Assembly: GCA_013298215.1 (NCBI GenBank)
Contig: JAAFKE010000003.1
Span: forward strand, 62,001 to 126,000
From: Cytophagales bacterium
GTDB lineage: Bacteria; Bacteroidota; Bacteroidia; Cytophagales; Spirosomataceae
Direction of reading: 5' to 3'
Length of the DNA: 64,000 nt
Part shown: in pieces, positions 2,465 to 18,962 of the stretch
How the letters are laid out: every line of letters begins with the position of its first letter
Position numbering within the stretch: position 1 is the stretch's first letter
Position numbers and translations under genes: made by a program
Notes under the pieces: model-generated
The model's input: only the letters and a program-made list of their open reading frames with translations
Told to the model about the DNA's origin: nothing
Database searches by the model: none

Positions 2465-3172
2465 TTACATGGCCACCAGTGTATTGCCCCGCAAAACTGG
2501 GACAACATCGTACAGATCGTGTTGGAGGCAAAACGATATGTCTTTTTGAATGCCAAGCCGTTGCAACCGCCGCACGTGCGACGACGACGCAACGTAGCCC
2601 ATCAGATCGGCCTTGGCCTGGCCATACATCCGCTGGGCAATGAGTGCGCTGTCTTCGCCCACCAAATAATCGTTTTGGAGGGCCTCCACGAGCGCACCCG
2701 CAAAGAGGCTGTCCTCCAAGTTTACGCGGCCTTTCCAACCTGCGCAAAGCACCAGCACGTCGTATTGTTGCGATTTGAGGTAGTTTGCCACCGCACCCAG
2801 GTTCAAGAAAGCACCCACGAGCACTTTTACGGCCTCGGCTTTGGCCTTGGTAATAGACAAGGTGCCGTTTGTGGTGGTCATGGCTATATCGGCTCCGATG
2901 AGGCGGTCGTCCATGTAGCTAAACGGCGAATTATCTAAGTCGAACCCCTCTACTTTTTGGGCGTTGCGTTCGGCGGCGGCCACAAAACCTTTTTTTTGGA
3001 GGTCATAACATTCTTCGACCGTGGCCACGGGAATAATGCTGCGCACACCGTGGGCAAAAGCGGTGGTCATGCAGGAAGTGGCCCTAAAAATATCGGTCAC
3101 TACCACAATCGAGTTTTCTATTTTGTGCAGGTGCAGCAGGTCAGGGGTTAGGCAAACGTCAATGCTTTTCAT
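2465..3172 (-). CDS. comB: 2-phosphosulfolactate phosphatase family protein
   Basis: Member of the ComB family, Mg-dependent acid phosphatases that release sulfolactate from 2-phosphosulfolactate. ComB is a step of coenzyme M synthesis in methanogens and occurs widely in bacteria where the role is less clear. Family landmarks are VVVTDIFRATSCMTTAFAHG near residues 23-42, AAERNAQKVEGFDLDNSP near 76-93, TTTNGT at about 120 and VLCAGWKGRVNLEDSLFAGA at about 160. The 235-residue length is normal. It starts 8 bases after the gcvT stop and is probably cotranscribed with gcvT. In this organism a sulfonate or sulfonolipid link is conceivable, but that is inference only. Confidence 0.85.
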   Translation of the reverse strand: MKSIDVCLTPDLLHLHKIENSIVVVTDIFRATSCMTTAFAHGVRSIIPVATVEECYDLQKKGFVAAAERNAQKVEGFDLDNSPFSYMDDRLIGADIAMTTTNGTLSITKAKAEAVKVLVGAFLNLGAVANYLKSQQYDVLVLCAGWKGRVNLEDSLFAGALVEALQNDYLVGEDSALIAQRMYGQAKADLMGYVASSSHVRRLQRLGIQKDISFCLQHDLYDVVPVLRGNTLVAM

Positions 3173-5738: not shown

Positions 5739-8700
5739 CTAAAAACCTTCTTTCTCCTCTTCCTTTTTCTTGGCGGGCTTTTTACCCGGCATCGTGGTTT
5801 CTTTCGTGGTTTCTTTGCCCGCCACTTTGGGGTCGGCGGGCGCGTTGGTCATTATTGCTTTGCCGTATTTGTCATACAGCGGCTTGCCATCTTTGCCCAG
5901 GACAGGCACCAATTTAGGCGTGTCGGCCAGGGTCTCCTCAGAGGCAGGGCTGGGAGCGGTTTTTTTGGCGTTTTTGCCAACTGGTGCGGGCGGAGTTTTG
6001 GCAATAACTTTGGGCTGCGGGCGGGCTTTGGTTTTGTAAACGTTCATGCACCGCTCCAAAAATGAGTTGCGTTCGTCGAAACCCAACGGCACCATTTTGA
6101 AGTCTTTTTCTTTCGATTTGTCTCCTTTACCCTTTGCCATTAGCATGTCATTAAAGGTATAGTCCGACGACACCACACCCAGTTGGCCGTCTTGCCAATC
6201 GAAAAAATACCACAACTCGGGCGAAACCTCCACGTAGATGCTCACCTCGTCGTCTTTGCTGCGCTTTCTGATCTCGACGTAGCCGTTCATTTCGGCGTTA
6301 ATGTCGTTGTTGCCCAAATTAGAAACACCCAACGTACCACCAACGCTATAAAACGAATTTTGGCTGGCCGACCACCGCAGATCGACGTTCGAGAGCACCA
6401 CCGATGCGTTGAACTTCGACGACGCGTCGGTGAGTGGTCGGTAGTCGGCAGCTCGGCGATTGAGGTACGTTTCGGCTTGTTTTGGGCCAATGAGTGCCGT
6501 CAGTTTGGCCAACAGGCGGTCGAGATTCGGTTCGGCAGGATCGTCGTTTTTGTTTTCTAAGTTCTCCTCCACAATCTTTTTTGCAATCTCGCCCATGGCT
6601 TGTGGGGCGGCCAAAAAATTAAAACTCAGCAGTGTATTAAACTTATACGCATTGCTATCTACGTTGATCGATGCCAAGCCCGCCGCCATAAACATCTCGT
6701 CTTTGCTATAAGTTTTTCCGCTCCGCATAAAGTTCAATACGCCCTGGTAACTAATAACCCCCTTGGCATCGTTGAAAGTATAAGCATTTTGCTCGTCGAT
6801 CAGCTCGCTGTCGGCCTTCGGTTTAGGCACAATTTTGAAGGACTTTGTGGCCTCGTTGAACGACATTGAACCCGTGGCCAAAAAAATATTTTGATCGTTT
6901 TTTGATTCCTTCGTTGATAAAAAAGTGCTGTACAGGCCGTCGGCACCCGACCTGTAATGTAGGCCCACAAACAACGGGTCTTCGGTTTCGTTTTTGAGGG
7001 TCTGGTCAATTTTGATGGCCACGTTTTTGGTAGGTATTTCTTTGAAACCAATCCAAGAACTCAGCAAATCGACCCTTTTTTTAATGATCGGTTTCACGTA
7101 GCCACTAAACTGCAAATTGGGCTCGGGGGCAAGCATAACCATGCTCCCTTTGTACTGAATGCGCGGCGAAATAATGAAATTATCAGCCTCGGTGATTTCG
7201 GCGCGTGCCGCCGTGAAAAAAGTTTTGGTTGCCGTTTTATTTTTGGCGTTGGCCACCACCACATTAGGGCGCAGCTCAAAATTGCCCATTTTTACGGAAA
7301 CAGAGTCGTTTTTGATGGTAATATATTGGTAGGTGGCATCGCCAGAGAACTTGTTTCGGGACGAGATTGTGATATTTCCATTTTTTAGTCGGTGGTATTC
7401 GTTGAGTGTATCGAGCAACAAACGGGCATTTTTGAAAGGCTGCATGTCTCCGTTTCGACGGATGGTTACCAAGCCTTTTTCGGGCAGTACCTTGGCATCC
7501 GCCGATTTTATATACGGCACCCCGCTGATACTTAACGTCATTTTCTCGATCTCGTACAAGGCCGCCGACCCGTTAAAAATAAGTCCTTCTTGCTCGGGTG
7601 CGGTGGCCGAAAAAGTAGAGGTCAAAACATCGCCTTTCATGGCAATCGTCTTGGCGTTTATGTTCCACTGCGCCCGGTTAATGGACGTGCGGTAGGCGGC
7701 AAACGGAAACTCTACGCTCGAGCTCGTCTCCAGCGCGTTGTTGTTGGATACTATGCCCACGGCTCCCTTCACGATATTAAAGTCAATGTCAACGTTTTGC
7801 CCCAACAGCACGGGTCTGAAAGAGTTTTGCTGCTGCGTCGAAACGATTTTGAACTGGGCCTCGCCCGCCGAAAAACCCTCTTTGTTGAATTTTATGTCCT
7901 GCGACAACAACTCCGAATCGTCGCGTTTGAGCTGTCCGCGCCCGTACAGACCCGTCGAACGCAGCACCACGCGCCCGTCTAACTTGGTGCTGGCGTTGTA
8001 AAAACTAAACGTGTTTCCCTTCGTCGAAAAACTCATGCTATCGGCGCGTGGTACCCACCGCATGGTGTAGTTTCGCATGTCTACTTTCGGGAAGTACGCC
8101 TTTCCAATCACCATTTCTTTGATCTCGGCCTCGGTGCCAAAAGCCGTCAGCGAGTCGGTCAAAAAGAGCATATCTTGCGTTGGCACGCGCGCACTCAGGT
8201 GCATTATCTCTCCCTTTGAACGAAGCCCTCTTTTGTCCATCACCAAATTGGCACCAAATTTTACGTTGGTATTTTTGTTGTATACCTTGAAACCCGCCGC
8301 TGGTACGCGGTACTCAAAGCCCAGCGAATTGTCGGGCATGGAGCGGAGTTCGGCCTTGAAATCGGGAAAAATTCCGTCTGAGTGAAACGTCCCGAGAAAT
8401 ACAATGTCGGCCATTCCCAGACTATCGTAGTCAATAGAGGGTATTTTAAAATAGGTTTTTCTGCTGTACGCCACATTACCACGGTCGGCCTGGTCGAAAA
8501 AAACGGTCATTCCTTCGGGAATACTGAGGCGTGGAAAAACCGAATTTTTGATTTTTCCAGATTTGTTGGCGGGGTCATTTAGGTAAATCCTTCCCGATTT
8601 TTCGTATTTCACGTCCTCGCCAATCTCCGTTGAGCCACCCTTGCTGTAAACCGATTGCGGCACAAAGGTAATGGACTCTATTTTGGTCAAATCGACAAAA

Positions 8701-10652
8701 AACTTGTCGTAATTAAACTTCAAGTCGTTTCCCTTAAACCTAAAATTAGCTGACTTCAACTGACCGTTGAGCGTAAAGTCACGGTTTCGCCCCATTCGGA
8801 TTTGCTTGTCGGACGGCTGGGCAAATATTTTCAGTGAATCACTGATCGTAAACGTGTTCACCCCCCTGATCGTCAGGATACTATCGGCCAGATCGATGGA
8901 GGCATTGGCCAAACTTTCTGTGTTGTTGAAGAGCGACGTAATCTGAAAGTTGTCGTAATCGGTTTTGTTTATGTTGGCCAAAATGTACAAAATTCCTTTT
9001 TTAGAAAGTGCATACAGGTCAGTTTTGGGGTTGTTTTCTAAGTAGCTCTGCCGCACCATTTGGTTCAAACTTCCGCGCACAACCTGCTCATCTTTTTTGT
9101 AGAATGTAGCCAAATCGTAGGGCGTAAAATTGGGTACTTTTTGCTTTTGCACATAGTTTGCAGCCATCAGAAGCGGATGAAACCCAAACTCCGAACTAAT
9201 AGCCGAAAAGCGCTCGGGTTTAAAAAAACCGAACGACTCAAACCGGATAGGCACTTCGGCCTTACCCGAAACGACGTAGAACTCCAACTGGTTTTTAGGA
9301 AAGCTCCAGCGCAACATTTCCGAATACACATACATTTTATGGTACGTGTCGGTGTAGGGCACGTCGCGGTAGCTGGTACCATCGGCGCGGTCGAGTTTGA
9401 GCAACCCCGCCACGTCGGCATACATAAATCGAACACCCGGGTGGTAAAGCGAGTCGTTTTTTCCTATCATCGTAACAAACGAAGCCAGCGGGGCCGTCAC
9501 CACGGTGTCGCTCAATATAAACTTGCGGCTCTTTGCCCTAAAAGCCACTTTGTTGTCTTTCAAAACGGTTATTTCCGACGGCTCGTTGTTCAGGGACGTG
9601 CTCAGGCGGTTTTTGCCCAACAGCGTTAGCCCGCCTTGGTAACGAATGTTGGCACTGAAACTACGCAAAACAGCATCGTTGGCATAGGACACAAAAACGG
9701 GCTGGTTCGACGGCACCCCGCGCGGGCGGCGCTTGCTCTCGAAATCGAAAACGCCCTTTATGGGCTTGGCCAGGCGGGTTTCGTAGCGCAGCGTCACGTC
9801 GTCGGCACTGATTTTGGGCGTGTTCACATTAAAAACGTATTCGCTCAGTTGCACAGCAATGGCGGGGTCTCCGGCTACTTCCCAGGAGAACCGTCCGTTT
9901 TTGCCAACAAAAAAACCTTCCTTCACCGACAGCACACCGTCGGTCTGCGACAGCGTGACGGAGTCGTTGAAGGTGGTCATTACCAGGTCAATTCCTTGAA
10001 AATCAATAACCGCACCGCTGGCAGTTGGTAGTTTTCGCTTTTGATAATCAGGCACTTTTGCGTCGGCACTGTCGCTCAGAATGGTGTTGGAGTCCCAGCC
10101 GTCGTCTTTTTTGGCCATTTCTACCGTCCTCACCACCTCGGTATTGGTGTCGGTATACCTAAAATTAAACGTGCCACCGATGGCGTAGAGTTTATTGTAA
10201 TTTGAATTATAAAGCAACCGCGACTCGTAGAGCAGGTGGGCTTGTTCAAAGAATTTGAGAACCAATTTGGGGTCGTTGCTGTCGGTTATTCGGGCGGCCA
10301 CGTCCAAAAACGCGTCCATGGCCACGGGAGTAATGTTGTGTACATAAATAGCCGCGTGGATACCCGCGAACATTTCGACAAACTGCGGATTGGCCTTGTA
10401 GCCCTTGCTGACCAGTTTTTTGACCATGGCCATTGCCTTGGCTTGCTGTTGGCTGCTGAAACGCGGGTCTAACCAGACTGCTTTTAGGCGTTCGCTGGCC
10501 TTGGCATACTGGGGCGTACCGCCATACGACATCATTTTTTCTACATCTGCCACAAACTGCGCGGGGTCGTCGGAGAGCCGCACCAGTTGGCCCCGGAGCG
10601 CACCGTGAAACAGCAGTAGAAACAAAACGAAGACGCGGGACAGTTTTTTCAT
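5739..10652 (-). CDS. Giant exported protein of unknown function (1637 aa)
   Basis: Not recognised by domain. It begins with a clear signal peptide (MKKLSRVFVLFLLLFHGALRGQ). A helical first 170 residues (KASERLKAVW, FVEMFAGIHAAIY) lead into a very long beta-rich body with recurrent short strand-turn units such as GVNTFTISDSLKIFAQ, TEIGEDVKYEKSGRIYLNDP and LDGRVVLRSTGLYGRGQL. This suggests a beta-helix or OstA/AsmA-like elongated periplasmic or surface structure. The last 110 residues are rich in Pro and Lys (KTPPAPVGKNAKK, PGKKPAKKKEEEKEGF). There is no obvious T9SS C-terminal domain. It starts 3 bases after the prmA stop and is therefore probably cotranscribed. I believe similar very large proteins occur in other Cytophagales, but I cannot name a function. 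Confidence 0.8.
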   Translation of the reverse strand: MKKLSRVFVLFLLLFHGALRGQLVRLSDDPAQFVADVEKMMSYGGTPQYAKASERLKAVWLDPRFSSQQQAKAMAMVKKLVSKGYKANPQFVEMFAGIHAAIYVHNITPVAMDAFLDVAARITDSNDPKLVLKFFEQAHLLYESRLLYNSNYNKLYAIGGTFNFRYTDTNTEVVRTVEMAKKDDGWDSNTILSDSADAKVPDYQKRKLPTASGAVIDFQGIDLVMTTFNDSVTLSQTDGVLSVKEGFFVGKNGRFSWEVAGDPAIAVQLSEYVFNVNTPKISADDVTLRYETRLAKPIKGVFDFESKRRPRGVPSNQPVFVSYANDAVLRSFSANIRYQGGLTLLGKNRLSTSLNNEPSEITVLKDNKVAFRAKSRKFILSDTVVTAPLASFVTMIGKNDSLYHPGVRFMYADVAGLLKLDRADGTSYRDVPYTDTYHKMYVYSEMLRWSFPKNQLEFYVVSGKAEVPIRFESFGFFKPERFSAISSEFGFHPLLMAANYVQKQKVPNFTPYDLATFYKKDEQVVRGSLNQMVRQSYLENNPKTDLYALSKKGILYILANINKTDYDNFQITSLFNNTESLANASIDLADSILTIRGVNTFTISDSLKIFAQPSDKQIRMGRNRDFTLNGQLKSANFRFKGNDLKFNYDKFFVDLTKIESITFVPQSVYSKGGSTEIGEDVKYEKSGRIYLNDPANKSGKIKNSVFPRLSIPEGMTVFFDQADRGNVAYSRKTYFKIPSIDYDSLGMADIVFLGTFHSDGIFPDFKAELRSMPDNSLGFEYRVPAAGFKVYNKNTNVKFGANLVMDKRGLRSKGEIMHLSARVPTQDMLFLTDSLTAFGTEAEIKEMVIGKAYFPKVDMRNYTMRWVPRADSMSFSTKGNTFSFYNASTKLDGRVVLRSTGLYGRGQLKRDDSELLSQDIKFNKEGFSAGEAQFKIVSTQQQNSFRPVLLGQNVDIDFNIVKGAVGIVSNNNALETSSSVEFPFAAYRTSINRAQWNINAKTIAMKGDVLTSTFSATAPEQEGLIFNGSAALYEIEKMTLSISGVPYIKSADAKVLPEKGLVTIRRNGDMQPFKNARLLLDTLNEYHRLKNGNITISSRNKFSGDATYQYITIKNDSVSVKMGNFELRPNVVVANAKNKTATKTFFTAARAEITEADNFIISPRIQYKGSMVMLAPEPNLQFSGYVKPIIKKRVDLLSSWIGFKEIPTKNVAIKIDQTLKNETEDPLFVGLHYRSGADGLYSTFLSTKESKNDQNIFLATGSMSFNEATKSFKIVPKPKADSELIDEQNAYTFNDAKGVISYQGVLNFMRSGKTYSKDEMFMAAGLASINVDSNAYKFNTLLSFNFLAAPQAMGEIAKKIVEENLENKNDDPAEPNLDRLLAKLTALIGPKQAETYLNRRAADYRPLTDASSKFNASVVLSNVDLRWSASQNSFYSVGGTLGVSNLGNNDINAEMNGYVEIRKRSKDDEVSIYVEVSPELWYFFDWQDGQLGVVSSDYTFNDMLMAKGKGDKSKEKDFKMVPLGFDERNSFLERCMNVYKTKARPQPKVIAKTPPAPVGKNAKKTAPSPASEETLADTPKLVPVLGKDGKPLYDKYGKAIMTNAPADPKVAGKETTKETTMPGKKPAKKKEEEKEGF

Positions 10653-11819: not shown

Positions 11820-14252
11820 TTGAAAATACAGACCAACGCCCAGTACCTACTCCACGACAGCCGCCAACTGATGTTCCCCGAGGCGAGTGTTTTTTTCGCC
11901 ATCCGAGGCCAGCACCACGACGGCCACGACTACGTGCTGCCCCTCTACGAGCAGGGCGTTCGGGAGTTTGTGGTCGAGGGTGGCGTACTTTCGGGAGCTC
12001 AAAAACAAGCGTTTGAGGAATTAAAAAATGCCAAATTTTGGGTTGTCGATAACGCACTCCTCGCCATGCAACAATTGGTGGCCCACCACCGCACGCAGTT
12101 TCACGTTCCGGTGGTGGGCATAACGGGTAGCAACGGCAAGACGATCGTAAAAGAATGGTTGGCGCAACTGCTGGCACCCGAGTTTAACGTCGTGAAAAGC
12201 CCAAAAAGCTATAATTCTCAGCTGGGCGTGCCGCTGTCGGTGTGGGCCATGAACGCCACCCACACGCTGGGCATTTTTGAGGCGGGGCTTTCTAAACCCC
12301 ACGAGATCGAACACATTGAGCCCGTGGTGCGCCCCACAATCGGGATTTTTACCAACATTGGGCCAGCCCACGACGAAGGTTTTAGGAGTACGAAACAAAA
12401 GATTACCGAAAAACTGCGGCTCTTCTCGCACGCCCAAAAACTTATTTACTGCGCCGATTACGAAGATATAGATACCGAGGTAAACATCATTTTGCGCGCC
12501 GCCAACCCCACCATCGACCTGGTGGCTTGGGGCAAAAAGAAAAACGCGCGCGCCAAATACCAGACGCTGTTTGACGCTGTGGCCCAGAAACTGACGGTGA
12601 ACGACCACGTTTTTTCGACCCACTTCAAAGATGCAGCATCGGTAGAAAACCTAACGCACTGCATTGTGTTGATGCTCGAAATGAAGTACGCTCCCGCACT
12701 CATTGAGCAACGTATTGCGCTGCTGCGGCCCGTTTCGATGCGCCTCGAAATGAAACAAGGTACCAATAACTGTTATTTGATCGACGATTCGTACAACAAC
12801 GACTTGGCTGGACTAACGATGGCGTTGCAGTTTTTGAGCCAGCAAGAACAACGGCCCCAAAAGGTGGTGATCCTGTCGGATTTATTGCAGACGGGCCAGA
12901 AAGAACCCGATCTTTACCAGCACATTGCCCAACTGCTGGCCGAAAAAAAAGTTGATCGACTCGTAGGAATTGGCGCGGCATTTGGCCGAAACAGCGCATT
13001 TTTTGAAACAGGCAGTTTGTTTTTTTCCGACACGGAGGCATTTATGGCCGCAGCGCTGGTTTTTAAAAACGCACTCATTTTGGTGAAAGGTGCGCGCCCG
13101 TTTGAATTTGAACGAATTGTGAATCAGCTCCAAGAGAAGGTACACGGCACGGTGCTGGAAATAAATTTGGACGCGCTCACCCACAACTTAAATTATTACC
13201 GCGAAAAAGCGGGCGCAAATACCAAGATCATGGTCATGGTAAAAGCCTTTGCCTACGGCAGTGGCAGCGCGGAGGTGGCCCAATTGTTGCAGTTTCATCG
13301 GGTCGATTATTTGGCGGTGGCCTACGCCGACGAGGGCATCGAACTACGCCAAAACGGCATCGAACTACCCATTATGGTCATGAATCCCGCCGCTGGGAGT
13401 TTCGAGAAAATGTTTGAGCACAACCTCGAGCCCGAGATTTATAGCCCCCGCATTTTGGAATACTGGCTGGCGTTTGTGGCACAAAAAAAGGGCAAAAAAA
13501 CGCCAAAAATCCACCTAAAACTCGACACGGGTATGCACCGCCTGGGCTTTGTGGAAAGCGACCTGCCAACGCTCATTGCCCAGATTACAGAAAATCCAGT
13601 TTTGCGGGTAGCCACTGTTTTTAGCCATTTGGTGGGTGCCGACGAAAGCAAACACAACGCATTTTCGGAAAAACAGTTCGCGCTTTTCGGAGCCATGTAC
13701 GGCCGCATCGCCGCCGCATTGGGCTACCAGCCAGCGCGGCATATGCTAAATTCGGCGGGAATTGTGCGGTTTCCCGACTTTAAAATGGACATGGTTCGGC
13801 TCGGAATTGGCCTTTATGGGGTGGAGGTAAACCAACTGGAACAACGTTTTCTGAGGCCCATCGGAACGCTCAAAACGGTGATTTCTCAAATAAAAAACCT
13901 CAAAGCGGGGCAAACGGTGGGCTACGGTCGGCGCGGGGTCTTGGAACGTGACGCTCGGATTGCGACCATTGCCATTGGCTACGCCGACGGTTTTGACCGT
14001 GGTTTCAGCGGGGCAGTGGGGCGTGTGAGCGTGGGCGGCGTGCTTTGCCCAGTGGTGGGCAATGTGTGCATGGACATGACGATGATTGACATTACCGACG
14101 TGCCAACCGCCCAAGAAGGCGATGAGGTGGTTGTATTTGGTGCTCAAAACCCGATTACAGACCTCGCCCGCGCCATCGGCACAATTCCTTACGAAATTTT
14201 AACGGGCATTGGCGCACGGGTGAAGCGGGTGTTTTTTAAGGAGGGTAACTAA
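11820..14252 (+). CDS. murF-alr: Bifunctional UDP-MurNAc-tripeptide:D-Ala-D-Ala ligase / alanine racemase
   Basis: Two consecutive enzymes of peptidoglycan precursor synthesis in one 810-residue chain. Residues 1 to about 435 are MurF-like: DSRQLMFPEASVFFAIRG, ATP loop GITGSNGKTIVKEWL, SPKSYNSQLGVPLSVW, IGPAHDEGF and the C-terminal YNNDLAGLTMAL region. Residues about 440-810 are alanine racemase: VLEINLDALTHNLNYYR, PLP lysine in MVKAFAYGSG, HLKLDTGMHRLGF, and MVRLGIGLYGV with the second catalytic Tyr region. This fusion is known in Bacteroidota. The start is a TTG at 11820; no in-frame ATG lies closely upstream and the protein begins normally for MurF. Alr makes D-Ala, and MurF attaches the D-Ala-D-Ala dipeptide, with D-Ala ligase acting between them. 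Confidence 0.93.
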   Translation: MKIQTNAQYLLHDSRQLMFPEASVFFAIRGQHHDGHDYVLPLYEQGVREFVVEGGVLSGAQKQAFEELKNAKFWVVDNALLAMQQLVAHHRTQFHVPVVGITGSNGKTIVKEWLAQLLAPEFNVVKSPKSYNSQLGVPLSVWAMNATHTLGIFEAGLSKPHEIEHIEPVVRPTIGIFTNIGPAHDEGFRSTKQKITEKLRLFSHAQKLIYCADYEDIDTEVNIILRAANPTIDLVAWGKKKNARAKYQTLFDAVAQKLTVNDHVFSTHFKDAASVENLTHCIVLMLEMKYAPALIEQRIALLRPVSMRLEMKQGTNNCYLIDDSYNNDLAGLTMALQFLSQQEQRPQKVVILSDLLQTGQKEPDLYQHIAQLLAEKKVDRLVGIGAAFGRNSAFFETGSLFFSDTEAFMAAALVFKNALILVKGARPFEFERIVNQLQEKVHGTVLEINLDALTHNLNYYREKAGANTKIMVMVKAFAYGSGSAEVAQLLQFHRVDYLAVAYADEGIELRQNGIELPIMVMNPAAGSFEKMFEHNLEPEIYSPRILEYWLAFVAQKKGKKTPKIHLKLDTGMHRLGFVESDLPTLIAQITENPVLRVATVFSHLVGADESKHNAFSEKQFALFGAMYGRIAAALGYQPARHMLNSAGIVRFPDFKMDMVRLGIGLYGVEVNQLEQRFLRPIGTLKTVISQIKNLKAGQTVGYGRRGVLERDARIATIAIGYADGFDRGFSGAVGRVSVGGVLCPVVGNVCMDMTMIDITDVPTAQEGDEVVVFGAQNPITDLARAIGTIPYEILTGIGARVKRVFFKEGN

Positions 14253-17085: not shown

Positions 17086-17153
17086 TACATACTGAACCCC
17101 GCCGTTTTTTGAACTTCCTGCCGCGTTGAGCCATTATTTGATTGGAAAATGCC

Positions 17154-17235: not shown

Positions 17236-18243
17236 ATGAGCGCACCGAAGGAGTTTTCTGTATCGACCCACACTGAGCCGCACCGCATTAGAACACGCGA
17301 AATTCTGAAATCGCACCCCGAAATCAAAAAATTGGTAGGCCGCAACGTCAATACCTTTTATATAATGGTGGCCGCAGTGGCTTTCCAAGTGCTGGGAGCG
17401 TATTTGTTGAAAGACCAAGCCTGGTGGGTGGCGCTGATTGCGGCATATTGCCTGGGCGCGTTTGCGGTTCACACACTTTTTGTGAGTATCCACGAATCGG
17501 CGCACAACCTTATCTTTAAGAAACCGACGCACAATCTGCTCGCCGCCATTTTTGCAAACCTGCCGTCTATTTTTCCCACGGCTATTTACTTCCGTCACTT
17601 CCACATTAAGCACCACGCCTTCCAGGGAGTACACGAGTTAGACACCGACCTACCAGATTATTGGGAAGCCAAGCTCATTGGGGCGGGCTTCGTGGGCAAG
17701 TCTATTTGGCTGTTTATGTTCCCGATGTTTCAGGGCATCCGCACGCTTCGCGCCCGCGAGGTAAAACCTTTCGACGGCTGGGTGGCACTCAACTTTGTGG
17801 TTCAGATTGCTTTTGTGGTCGGAATCATTGCGTTCACGGGTTGGGTTGGGTTTTTATATATGTTCGCAAGTTTCTGGTTTTCAGTAGGTTTCCATCCACT
17901 GGGCGCGCGCTGGATCCAGGAGCACTACCTGGTGGTTGATAAAAACCAAGAAACGTATAGCTACTACGGGCCGCTCAACGGCGTGAACCTAAACGTAGGA
18001 TACCACAACGAACACCACGATTTTCCTTCGATCCCGTGGCAAAACCTTCCAAAAATCAAGGAAAAGGCACCCGAGTTTTATGATACGCTTCACTACCACA
18101 CCTCTTTTGTGCGGCTTTGGGGTAAGTTTATATTCGACCAAGAGATAAGCCTATACTCGCGCATTATCCGTAAAAACAGGGGTAAAGTGAGCCTGTCCGA
18201 CCCATCGAAGCCAGACACTGAGCTGATGGCCGTAATGAACTAA
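17236..18243 (+). CDS. Membrane fatty acid / sphingolipid delta-4 desaturase-like protein (DEGS1-like)
   Basis: Membrane di-iron desaturase of 335 residues with the three His boxes HESAH (in SIHESAHNL), HFHIKHH and HNEHHDFP, and four or more hydrophobic segments. From memory, the chain resembles eukaryotic dihydroceramide delta-4 desaturase (DEGS1/DES1) along nearly its whole length, more than bacterial acyl-lipid desaturases. Points of resemblance are PHRIRTREILKSHPEIKKL at the N-terminus, FANLPSIFPTAIYF before box 2, ETYSYYGPLNGVNLNVGYHN leading into box 3, and APEFYDTLHYH after it. The start at 17236 (MSAPKEFSV) matches where DEGS proteins begin and lies downstream of the promoter. The likely substrate is a sphingoid- or sulfonolipid-type long-chain base, which is inference. 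Confidence 0.85.
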   Translation: MSAPKEFSVSTHTEPHRIRTREILKSHPEIKKLVGRNVNTFYIMVAAVAFQVLGAYLLKDQAWWVALIAAYCLGAFAVHTLFVSIHESAHNLIFKKPTHNLLAAIFANLPSIFPTAIYFRHFHIKHHAFQGVHELDTDLPDYWEAKLIGAGFVGKSIWLFMFPMFQGIRTLRAREVKPFDGWVALNFVVQIAFVVGIIAFTGWVGFLYMFASFWFSVGFHPLGARWIQEHYLVVDKNQETYSYYGPLNGVNLNVGYHNEHHDFPSIPWQNLPKIKEKAPEFYDTLHYHTSFVRLWGKFIFDQEISLYSRIIRKNRGKVSLSDPSKPDTELMAVMN

Positions 18244-18263: not shown

Positions 18264-18962
18264 ATGAAGTCCGTATTTTCTTTCTGGCGAGATTTCATTG
18301 ATCTCCTATTTCCCCGCGTTTGCTTGGCCTGTGCTGGCGAGTTGGTAGAATCCGAAGAACTCGTTTGCACAGGCTGCTGGGCGGCCATCCCCAAAACGCA
18401 GTCCCACGTGCACGCTCTGCCCGCCTTGCACGCAAAATTTGCGGGAAGGGTGGCAGTTAAACACGTTTTTAGCTACTTCTCGTTCGAGAAAAGTTCGCGG
18501 GTTCAAAACCTGCTCCACGAACTAAAATACAAAAATCAAACTGAGTTGGGCATCGTGCTGGGCAAGTTCTACGGCACCGACCTGCGCCAAATTGGGTATC
18601 AAGGCCAGTTAGACTTGATAGTGAGTGTGCCTCTGCACCCAAAAAAATACCAACAACGCGGCTACAACCAAAGCGACCTTTTTGCCGAAGGGCTGTCGGC
18701 TGCGTTGGGCGTGCCGTGGTCGGGCGTGGCTTTGCAGCGAGCCACCTACACCACCACGCAAACCAATAAAAATCGGGCCGAGCGTTGGCAAAACGTGGCG
18801 GGCGTGTTTGTGGCGCCAAACGCAGCCGATGTGGCGGGCAAGCGCGTTGCCCTCGTGGACGACGTGATGACGACTGGCGCAACCATCGAGTCGGCAGTTG
18901 TGACGCTGCTGAACGCGGGTTGCCGCGAGGTGTCCGTTATCACAATTGCGGCGGTTATGTAA
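18264..18962 (+). CDS. comF: ComF family phosphoribosyltransferase-like protein
   Basis: ComF-type protein of 232 residues. An N-terminal cysteine zinc-knuckle (CLACAGELVESEELVCTGCW, about residues 19-38) is followed by a type I phosphoribosyltransferase fold. The PRPP-binding signature is VALVDDVMTTGATIESAV (about 195-212), and VSVPLHPKKYQQRGYNQSD is the typical ComF central motif. Family members take part in DNA uptake in naturally competent bacteria, probably handling incoming single-stranded DNA, but many carriers are not known to be competent. It starts 20 bases after the desaturase stop and may share its transcript. Confidence 0.9.
   Translation: MKSVFSFWRDFIDLLFPRVCLACAGELVESEELVCTGCWAAIPKTQSHVHALPALHAKFAGRVAVKHVFSYFSFEKSSRVQNLLHELKYKNQTELGIVLGKFYGTDLRQIGYQGQLDLIVSVPLHPKKYQQRGYNQSDLFAEGLSAALGVPWSGVALQRATYTTTQTNKNRAERWQNVAGVFVAPNAADVAGKRVALVDDVMTTGATIESAVVTLLNAGCREVSVITIAAVM

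Follow-up and report, generated by a model that had tools for sequence, protein, structure and literature searches.

Introduction of a trans-4 double bond converts dihydroceramide into ceramide, and it is this bond that gives sphingosine its signaling and membrane properties. DEGS enzymes carry out the reaction with a di-metal center and O2, abstracting hydrogens at C4 and C5 of dihydroceramide. Among bacterial lipids, the acylhalocapnines of Salinibacter ruber have a sulfonolipid base with a double bond beside a hydroxyl. This is the arrangement that we predict for the lipids of the organism described here. Salinibacter was not identified among the genomes that we searched.

Capnine and the sulfonolipids have been described as sulfur-containing counterparts of sphingosine 1-phosphate and ceramide 1-phosphate, with links to choanoflagellate development and to inflammation (PMC9304779). 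The sulfonolipids of S. ruber are reported to vary in saturation (PMC2596770). The closest described route to such lipids is the pathway of capnine sulfonolipids that starts with the cysteate acyltransferase SulA/CFAT, known from Alistipes and Flavobacterium; our host resembles these organisms in having a SulA-type CFAT with the diagnostic lysine, but in the available extracts of PMC9304779, PMC11211663 and PMC12927429 no desaturase is named for the pathway. More generally, the extracts of open-licence PMC literature on capnine and sulfonolipids that we examined describe no desaturase for capnine, the sole mention of one being eukaryotic. Nor did we find a report of a bacterial DEGS in extracts from the same open-licence collection, which cannot prove absence.

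Here we describe a bacterial gene whose product resembles eukaryotic DEGS1/DEGS2 (DES) in its FA_desaturase core, its Lipid_DES N terminus, its three His boxes and its ETYSYYG and NVGYHNEHHDFP blocks. It differs from them in belonging to a bacterial genome without a recognized serine palmitoyltransferase (SPT) and in its predicted substrate, which is a sulfonate analogue. We put the probability at roughly 0.55 that it is a DEGS-family di-metal membrane desaturase that introduces a trans C4-C5 double bond into the base of capnine sulfonolipids.

The DEGS-type desaturase and its bacterial relatives

The window, by which we mean the whole 64,000-nucleotide stretch of DNA analyzed, contains an uninterrupted ORF on the forward strand whose translation gives 335 amino acids and a stop. 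The gene is real and intact, and its GC content equals that of its surroundings (0.499 versus 0.501 for the window). A longer in-frame start at 17149 is disfavored because aligned relatives begin near 17236, their own start codons being mostly the nearest ATG picked by script. Two further ORFs of the window were noted: one of 810 aa at 11820-14252 on the + strand, which by eye resembles a MurF-alanine racemase fusion, and one of 1637 aa at 5739-10652 on the - strand, whose N terminus resembles a signal peptide. The features discussed below are as follows.

17236..18243, + strand: DEGS-type membrane desaturase, 335 aa plus stop (translation, Pfam, alignment, trees)
17248..17349, + strand: Lipid_DES N-terminal signature, residues 5-38 (PF08557, 45.3 bits, cut-off 23)
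17491..17505, + strand: His box 1, HESAH, residues 86-90 (H86 and H90 invariant in a 25-protein alignment)
17602..17616, + strand: His box 2, HIKHH, residues 123-127 (H123, H126 and H127 invariant in the 25-protein alignment)
18004..18018, + strand: His box 3, HNEHH, residues 257-261 (invariant in the 25-protein alignment; DNA pattern unique in the window)
2465..3172, - strand: 2-phosphosulfolactate phosphatase (ComB), a possible sulfonate supply (PF04029, 266.8 bits)

Both signatures of the DEGS family are present: FA_desaturase with three His boxes (PF00487, 1.8e-24, 87.3 bits by HMMER against Pfam), and Lipid_DES above its curated cut-off (5.9e-12). Lipid_DES is the Pfam signature of sphingolipid Delta4-desaturases. 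The DEGS homology claimed in an earlier note on this DNA, made from the sequence alone, is thus borne out by PF08557, and the strings that it had named (RTREILKSHPEIKKL, FANLP, ETYSYYGPLN and NVGYHNEHHDFP) are all found in the protein. So too are the three His boxes, intact and with their histidines invariant; all three occur in 43 of the 43 proteins extracted, the window protein included, and the DNA pattern for HNEHHD, met once in the window, was absent from 100 shuffles. An NCBIfam scan placed the protein in no family over its cut-off. The acyl desaturase models DesA and DesB scored 12.9 and 15.2 bits, far under the cut-off of 500, and the top match of any kind was CrtW at 28.8 bits against a cut-off of 350. 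Among the three FA_desaturase genes of the host genome, only the window gene has Lipid_DES.

As the eukaryotic comparator we used a single human DEGS1 sequence that is itself approximate, as are the values given for it; its PF08557 score is 74.3 bits. The window protein shares 37.4% identity with it, in keeping with the resemblance along nearly the whole chain that had been noted from the sequence. Across the 42 bacterial proteins compared the range is 35-48%, whereas three other bacterial desaturases reach 15-20%. A phylogeny with eukaryotic DEGS had been proposed as a check. In our tree the approximate human sequence falls among the bacterial DEGS-like rows, where it joins four proteins of the family f42 with support of 99/100, one of the four being 48% identical to it. 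The split from three outgroup desaturases has support of only 74/58, with very long branches, a distant outgroup and one approximate eukaryotic sequence. Homology with DEGS is therefore supported by the curated family model and, weakly at the root, by the tree, which as a sequence comparison offers a lead to the origin of eukaryotic DEGS, not a result. Both trees pair the window protein with its sister from G006, a genome of the same family, within a clade of its own family. The f42 family, which belongs to another class, holds two distinct DEGS types, L021-L024 and L046-L047; the first is the nearest to the approximate human DEGS1 in the tree. A PDB search for a DEGS comparator found none. 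The viral_contigs collection gave 54 pattern matches and no relative of the window protein, and BFVD gave six desaturase-type proteins of giant viruses with 10-16% identity.

The gene is not special to its host, and relatives are common in several Bacteroidota lineages. Lipid_DES was found in one gene of the host genome, in 40 of 395 sampled genomes of the phylum (scoring was limited to the 18 best first-look candidates of each genome, and a few occurrences may have been overlooked) and in none of 14 control genomes. Ten of the 40 phylum matches had no locus and were left out of the extraction. Of 49 loci, we set aside L001, L035 and L043 as repeats and L018-L020 as desaturases of other kinds; L034, truncated at the end of its contig, did not enter the identities and trees. 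In named bacterial genomes there were at least 580 related stretches, and the best 80, which we kept, come from Spirosoma, Hymenobacter, Arcicella, Aquirufa, Chitinophaga, Mucilaginibacter, Ferruginibacter and others. A set of 59 genomes, made up of the host and its relatives, gave 17 matches to the window protein. Sixteen of these are homologues of at least 395 bits; the other, in G046 (24 bits), is another desaturase and was excluded.

The predicted fold fits the membrane desaturase/hydroxylase (AlkB) class and is silent on substrate. An AlphaFold2 model of the window protein (25 sequences, mean pLDDT 77, pTM 0.81) matched best, among solved structures, two chains of chloroplast Ycf2/Orf2971-FtsHi complexes (Z 17.4 and 16.4). 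AlkB followed with Z 15.1 and 14.6, and SCD1 with Z 5.7, a value that alone would mean little; Foldseek returned one match at E <= 0.001. The model is thus of the same broad fold class as AlkB alkane monooxygenase and stearoyl-CoA desaturase, but these are only 13-15% identical to the window protein and have other substrates.

Long-chain-base synthases in the host and across the class

Which base could the host supply? Its genome, which is 99.97% complete, has one strong gene (276 bits) and one weak match (55 bits) on the AONS model, a broad model that also matches in 13 of 14 control genomes. The strong gene scores 578 bits against Alistipes SulA (7u7h), 547 against CFAT (28eh) and 225 against SPT (3a2b). 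On the SPT model it reaches 281 bits, against a cut-off of 640, and by two models no SPT in the host genome was over cut-off. SulA differs from SPT in its active site by a lysine (PMC9304779). To locate this position we counted along the printed alignment from the cofactor lysine, and the host gene carries lysine there, where SPT has alanine. Across 46 aligned AONS rows, which include three CFAT-type repeats and take in all 15 desaturase-bearing genomes of the class and six of the eight of f42, lysine occurs in 28 of 28 CFAT-type rows and alanine in 18 of 18 SPT-like rows. With a SulA-type CFAT that has the lysine, and with no recognized SPT, the host appears to make capnine sulfonolipids and not sphingolipids. 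The desaturase and CFAT lie on different contigs.

Two observations on the AONS family stand apart from this argument. CFAT is the sole strong member in the host genome, with no obvious BioF or Kbl, and biotin may therefore not be made by the usual route. In other genomes, some open frames that contain a CFAT-like match (45-46% identity) run to 1113-1171 codons, over double the normal length, and may encode fused capnine-synthesis proteins (G235:C1:441649-442785, G274:C210:29618-30757 and G308:C158:4374-5516).

The sulfonate side of the pathway gives an indirect hint. The 2-phosphosulfolactate phosphatase to which the earlier note had drawn attention is indeed encoded in the window, and ComA is present elsewhere in the genome (306.6 bits); the hint is real, but as to a supply for capnine it is an indirect one. 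ComA and ComB could supply sulfolactate and, via sulfopyruvate, cysteate, the latter step being inferred. CapA is a bacterial cysteate synthase; the cysteate synthase model TIGR03844 found no match over its cut-off in the host genome (18.7 bits versus 324.9).

Among the 59 genomes, all 16 that carry the homologue have CFAT and none has SPT, so that in the host and the 15 others CFAT is the sole recognized long-chain-base synthase. SPT in the relatives was judged by the NF047600 model only, and one homologue-bearing genome, G009, is 88% complete. Four of the 59 genomes do have SPT, and all four lack the desaturase (0/16 with desaturase versus 4/43 without, Fisher p 0.57). CFAT itself is in 57 of the 59.

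We then looked across the class (98 genomes, a total counted from tables assumed to be ordered by kinship), scoring CFAT and SPT in the best four first-look candidates per genome of the phylum samples, so that a few presences may be missed. CFAT occurs in 91 of the 98 genomes, and the desaturase in 15 of the 91 with CFAT versus none of the seven without (Fisher p 0.59). Because CFAT is nearly universal in the class, its co-occurrence with the desaturase is uninformative, and we rejected it as proof of substrate. SPT gave a different picture: the desaturase is present in 8 of the 10 genomes that have SPT as well as CFAT, and in 7 of the 81 that have only CFAT (p 3e-6, with no correction for kinship). 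One genus accounts for five of the eight. All seven genomes of the class with SPT but without CFAT are also without the desaturase.

Beyond the class, eight f42 genomes have the desaturase and CFAT. Another 17 desaturase-bearing genomes, of the families f35, f53 and f61, gave neither a CFAT match at 1e-100 nor an SPT above cut-off; seven of them were inspected, and have an alanine-type AONS enzyme below the SPT cut-off. We also noted that G127, which bears the desaturase and gave no CFAT match, has two SPT-like AONS genes of 526 and 502 bits, below cut-off (C4:73010-74185 and C15:153036-154211).

SPT clusters around the desaturase in relatives

In the window itself, no long-chain-base synthesis gene adjoins the desaturase. 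Nor do we read the pairing with the downstream gene, which starts at 18264, as a functional operon, because the sister gene in G006 (L003) lies in a different neighborhood with other neighbors. We surveyed 100 desaturase loci (80 named, 20 unnamed) with flanks of up to 10 kb, many of them shorter, containing 1528 ORFs. A motif filter recognized the desaturase ORF in 96 of the 100 loci, missing L059, L090, L093 and L097, and at the top of the list of neighbor families none occurs in more than 16 of the 96. BLAST of the host CFAT and one SPT against the 1528 ORFs found SPT-type genes in 5 of the 100 loci and, with the host CFAT as query, CFAT-type genes beside the desaturase in none. SPT is thus the sole pathway gene found beside the desaturase in these loci.

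Four of the five loci (L065, L068, L081 and L082) are alike. SPT lies 2.2-2.3 kb upstream of the desaturase on the same strand, in a run whose order, on one strand, is FA_hydroxylase, SPT, GNAT, an epimerase-type reductase, the desaturase, inositol-1-phosphate synthase and PgpA, with a CDP-alcohol transferase and then a PAP2 gene further along. The gene families were assigned by scanning for L068 and for the reductase of L081, and in the other loci by order, length and first residues. On the SPT model the four genes score 648 (L065), 634 (L068, just below the cut-off of 640), 641 (L081) and 649 bits (L082). We call these loci Saprospiraceae-type, two of the four records being labeled Saprospiraceae and two only Bacteroidota/Bacteroidetes. 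In the fifth locus, L122 (Chitinophagaceae), an SPT of 666 bits lies 9 kb from the desaturase on the other strand, with the same lipid genes.

The desaturases of the four Saprospiraceae-type loci nest in a clade of 20 rows to which the window protein also belongs (SH-aLRT 98), in a quick tree to which 11 chosen named rows had been added, with no outgroup. The settings differ in that these desaturases stand beside SPT and inositol-lipid genes, whereas in the window the gene is alone and SPT was not found. SPT together with acyltransferase-like, reductase-like and inositol-lipid genes around the desaturase of relatives points to long-chain-base synthesis, and these clusters are the strongest evidence that the clade of the window protein works with long-chain-base lipids, not ordinary fatty acids. 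A CFAT (529-551 bits) was found as well in each of the five genomes in which SPT lies near the desaturase, so that there either base could be the substrate. Taken with the co-occurrence in 8 of 10 genomes, the clusters indicate that sphingolipids are probably the substrates in lineages possessing SPT.

As an observation in its own right, the four runs from FA_hydroxylase to the inositol-lipid genes are candidates for bacterial clusters that make inositol sphingolipids both unsaturated and hydroxylated, and their content is closer to eukaryotic sphingolipid synthesis than that of the usual bacterial set is. Presumably such clusters make inositol sphingolipids.

Proposed reaction, alternatives and meaning

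The earlier note had suggested action on bacterial sphingoid or capnoid bases. The link to long-chain bases gained ground from the SPT clusters of relatives, and in the host, with CFAT present and no SPT recognized, the base is narrowed to a capnoid one. In the reaction that we propose, CFAT would condense cysteate with acyl-ACP to 3-ketocapnine, which would then be reduced and N-acylated. The desaturase, with O2 and electrons from a bacterial donor, would introduce the trans double bond at C4=C5 of the capnine chain, beside the 3-hydroxyl. Its substrate could be the free capnine base or the N-acylated lipid, and acting on N-acylcapnine it would give a 3-hydroxy-4-ene capnine. Bearing the allylic alcohol typical of sphingosine, such a lipid would be the sulfonate counterpart of ceramide 1-phosphate or sphingosine 1-phosphate.

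The same capnine lipid might instead meet a C4/C5 hydroxylase, or a mixed desaturase/hydroxylase like DEGS2, and yield hydroxylated capnines. DEGS2 is indeed named as a desaturase/C4-monooxygenase in PMC13161914, and RIF-1 of Algoriphagus has a 5-hydroxy group on its capnine base (PMC3463246), so some enzyme does modify a capnine in this part of the chain. We regard this alternative as unlikely. Slightly less likely again is that the enzyme desaturates true sphingolipids, ceramide or sphinganine, coming from an unrecognized route or by uptake from outside. The close relatives of the window protein in SPT clusters, the 8 of 10 genomes with SPT and CFAT, and the use of dihydroceramide by eukaryotic DEGS all speak for it; but no SPT was recognized in the host genome by two models or in the 15 other desaturase-bearing genomes by NF047600, and the desaturase is missing from the seven genomes of the class in which SPT occurs without CFAT. 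There is a slim chance that the protein desaturates a fatty acyl chain, as acyl-lipid desaturases do, its likeness to DEGS reflecting ancestry only, as the 17 desaturase genomes of f35, f53 and f61 and the listing of DES1 also as an acyl-lipid delta8(3)-desaturase (PMC13161914) might suggest, but against this stand the SPT clusters of its clade, the Lipid_DES signature that it alone has in a genome with two more FA_desaturase genes, and the scores of the NCBIfam acyl desaturase models.

If capnine desaturation is the true function, a missing step of unsaturated sulfonolipid synthesis would gain an enzyme. The 4-unsaturated capnines would be a closer mimic of sphingosine lipids, and the enzyme could serve as a bacterial model of DEGS. 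Whether true sphingosine is made by some Bacteroidota is a question that the SPT-desaturase clusters of relatives open directly to genetics.

Finally, a wider picture seems to us possible, if doubtful. The Bacteroidota DEGS branch may serve sphingolipids and also, where SPT is missing, their sulfonate twins, sulfo-sphingosines (4-unsaturated capnine lipids). The animal enzyme may lie in or beside that branch, nearest to the f42-type subgroup, and bacteria and early eukaryotes may have exchanged sphingosine chemistry. Where eukaryotic DEGS came from thereby becomes a testable question.
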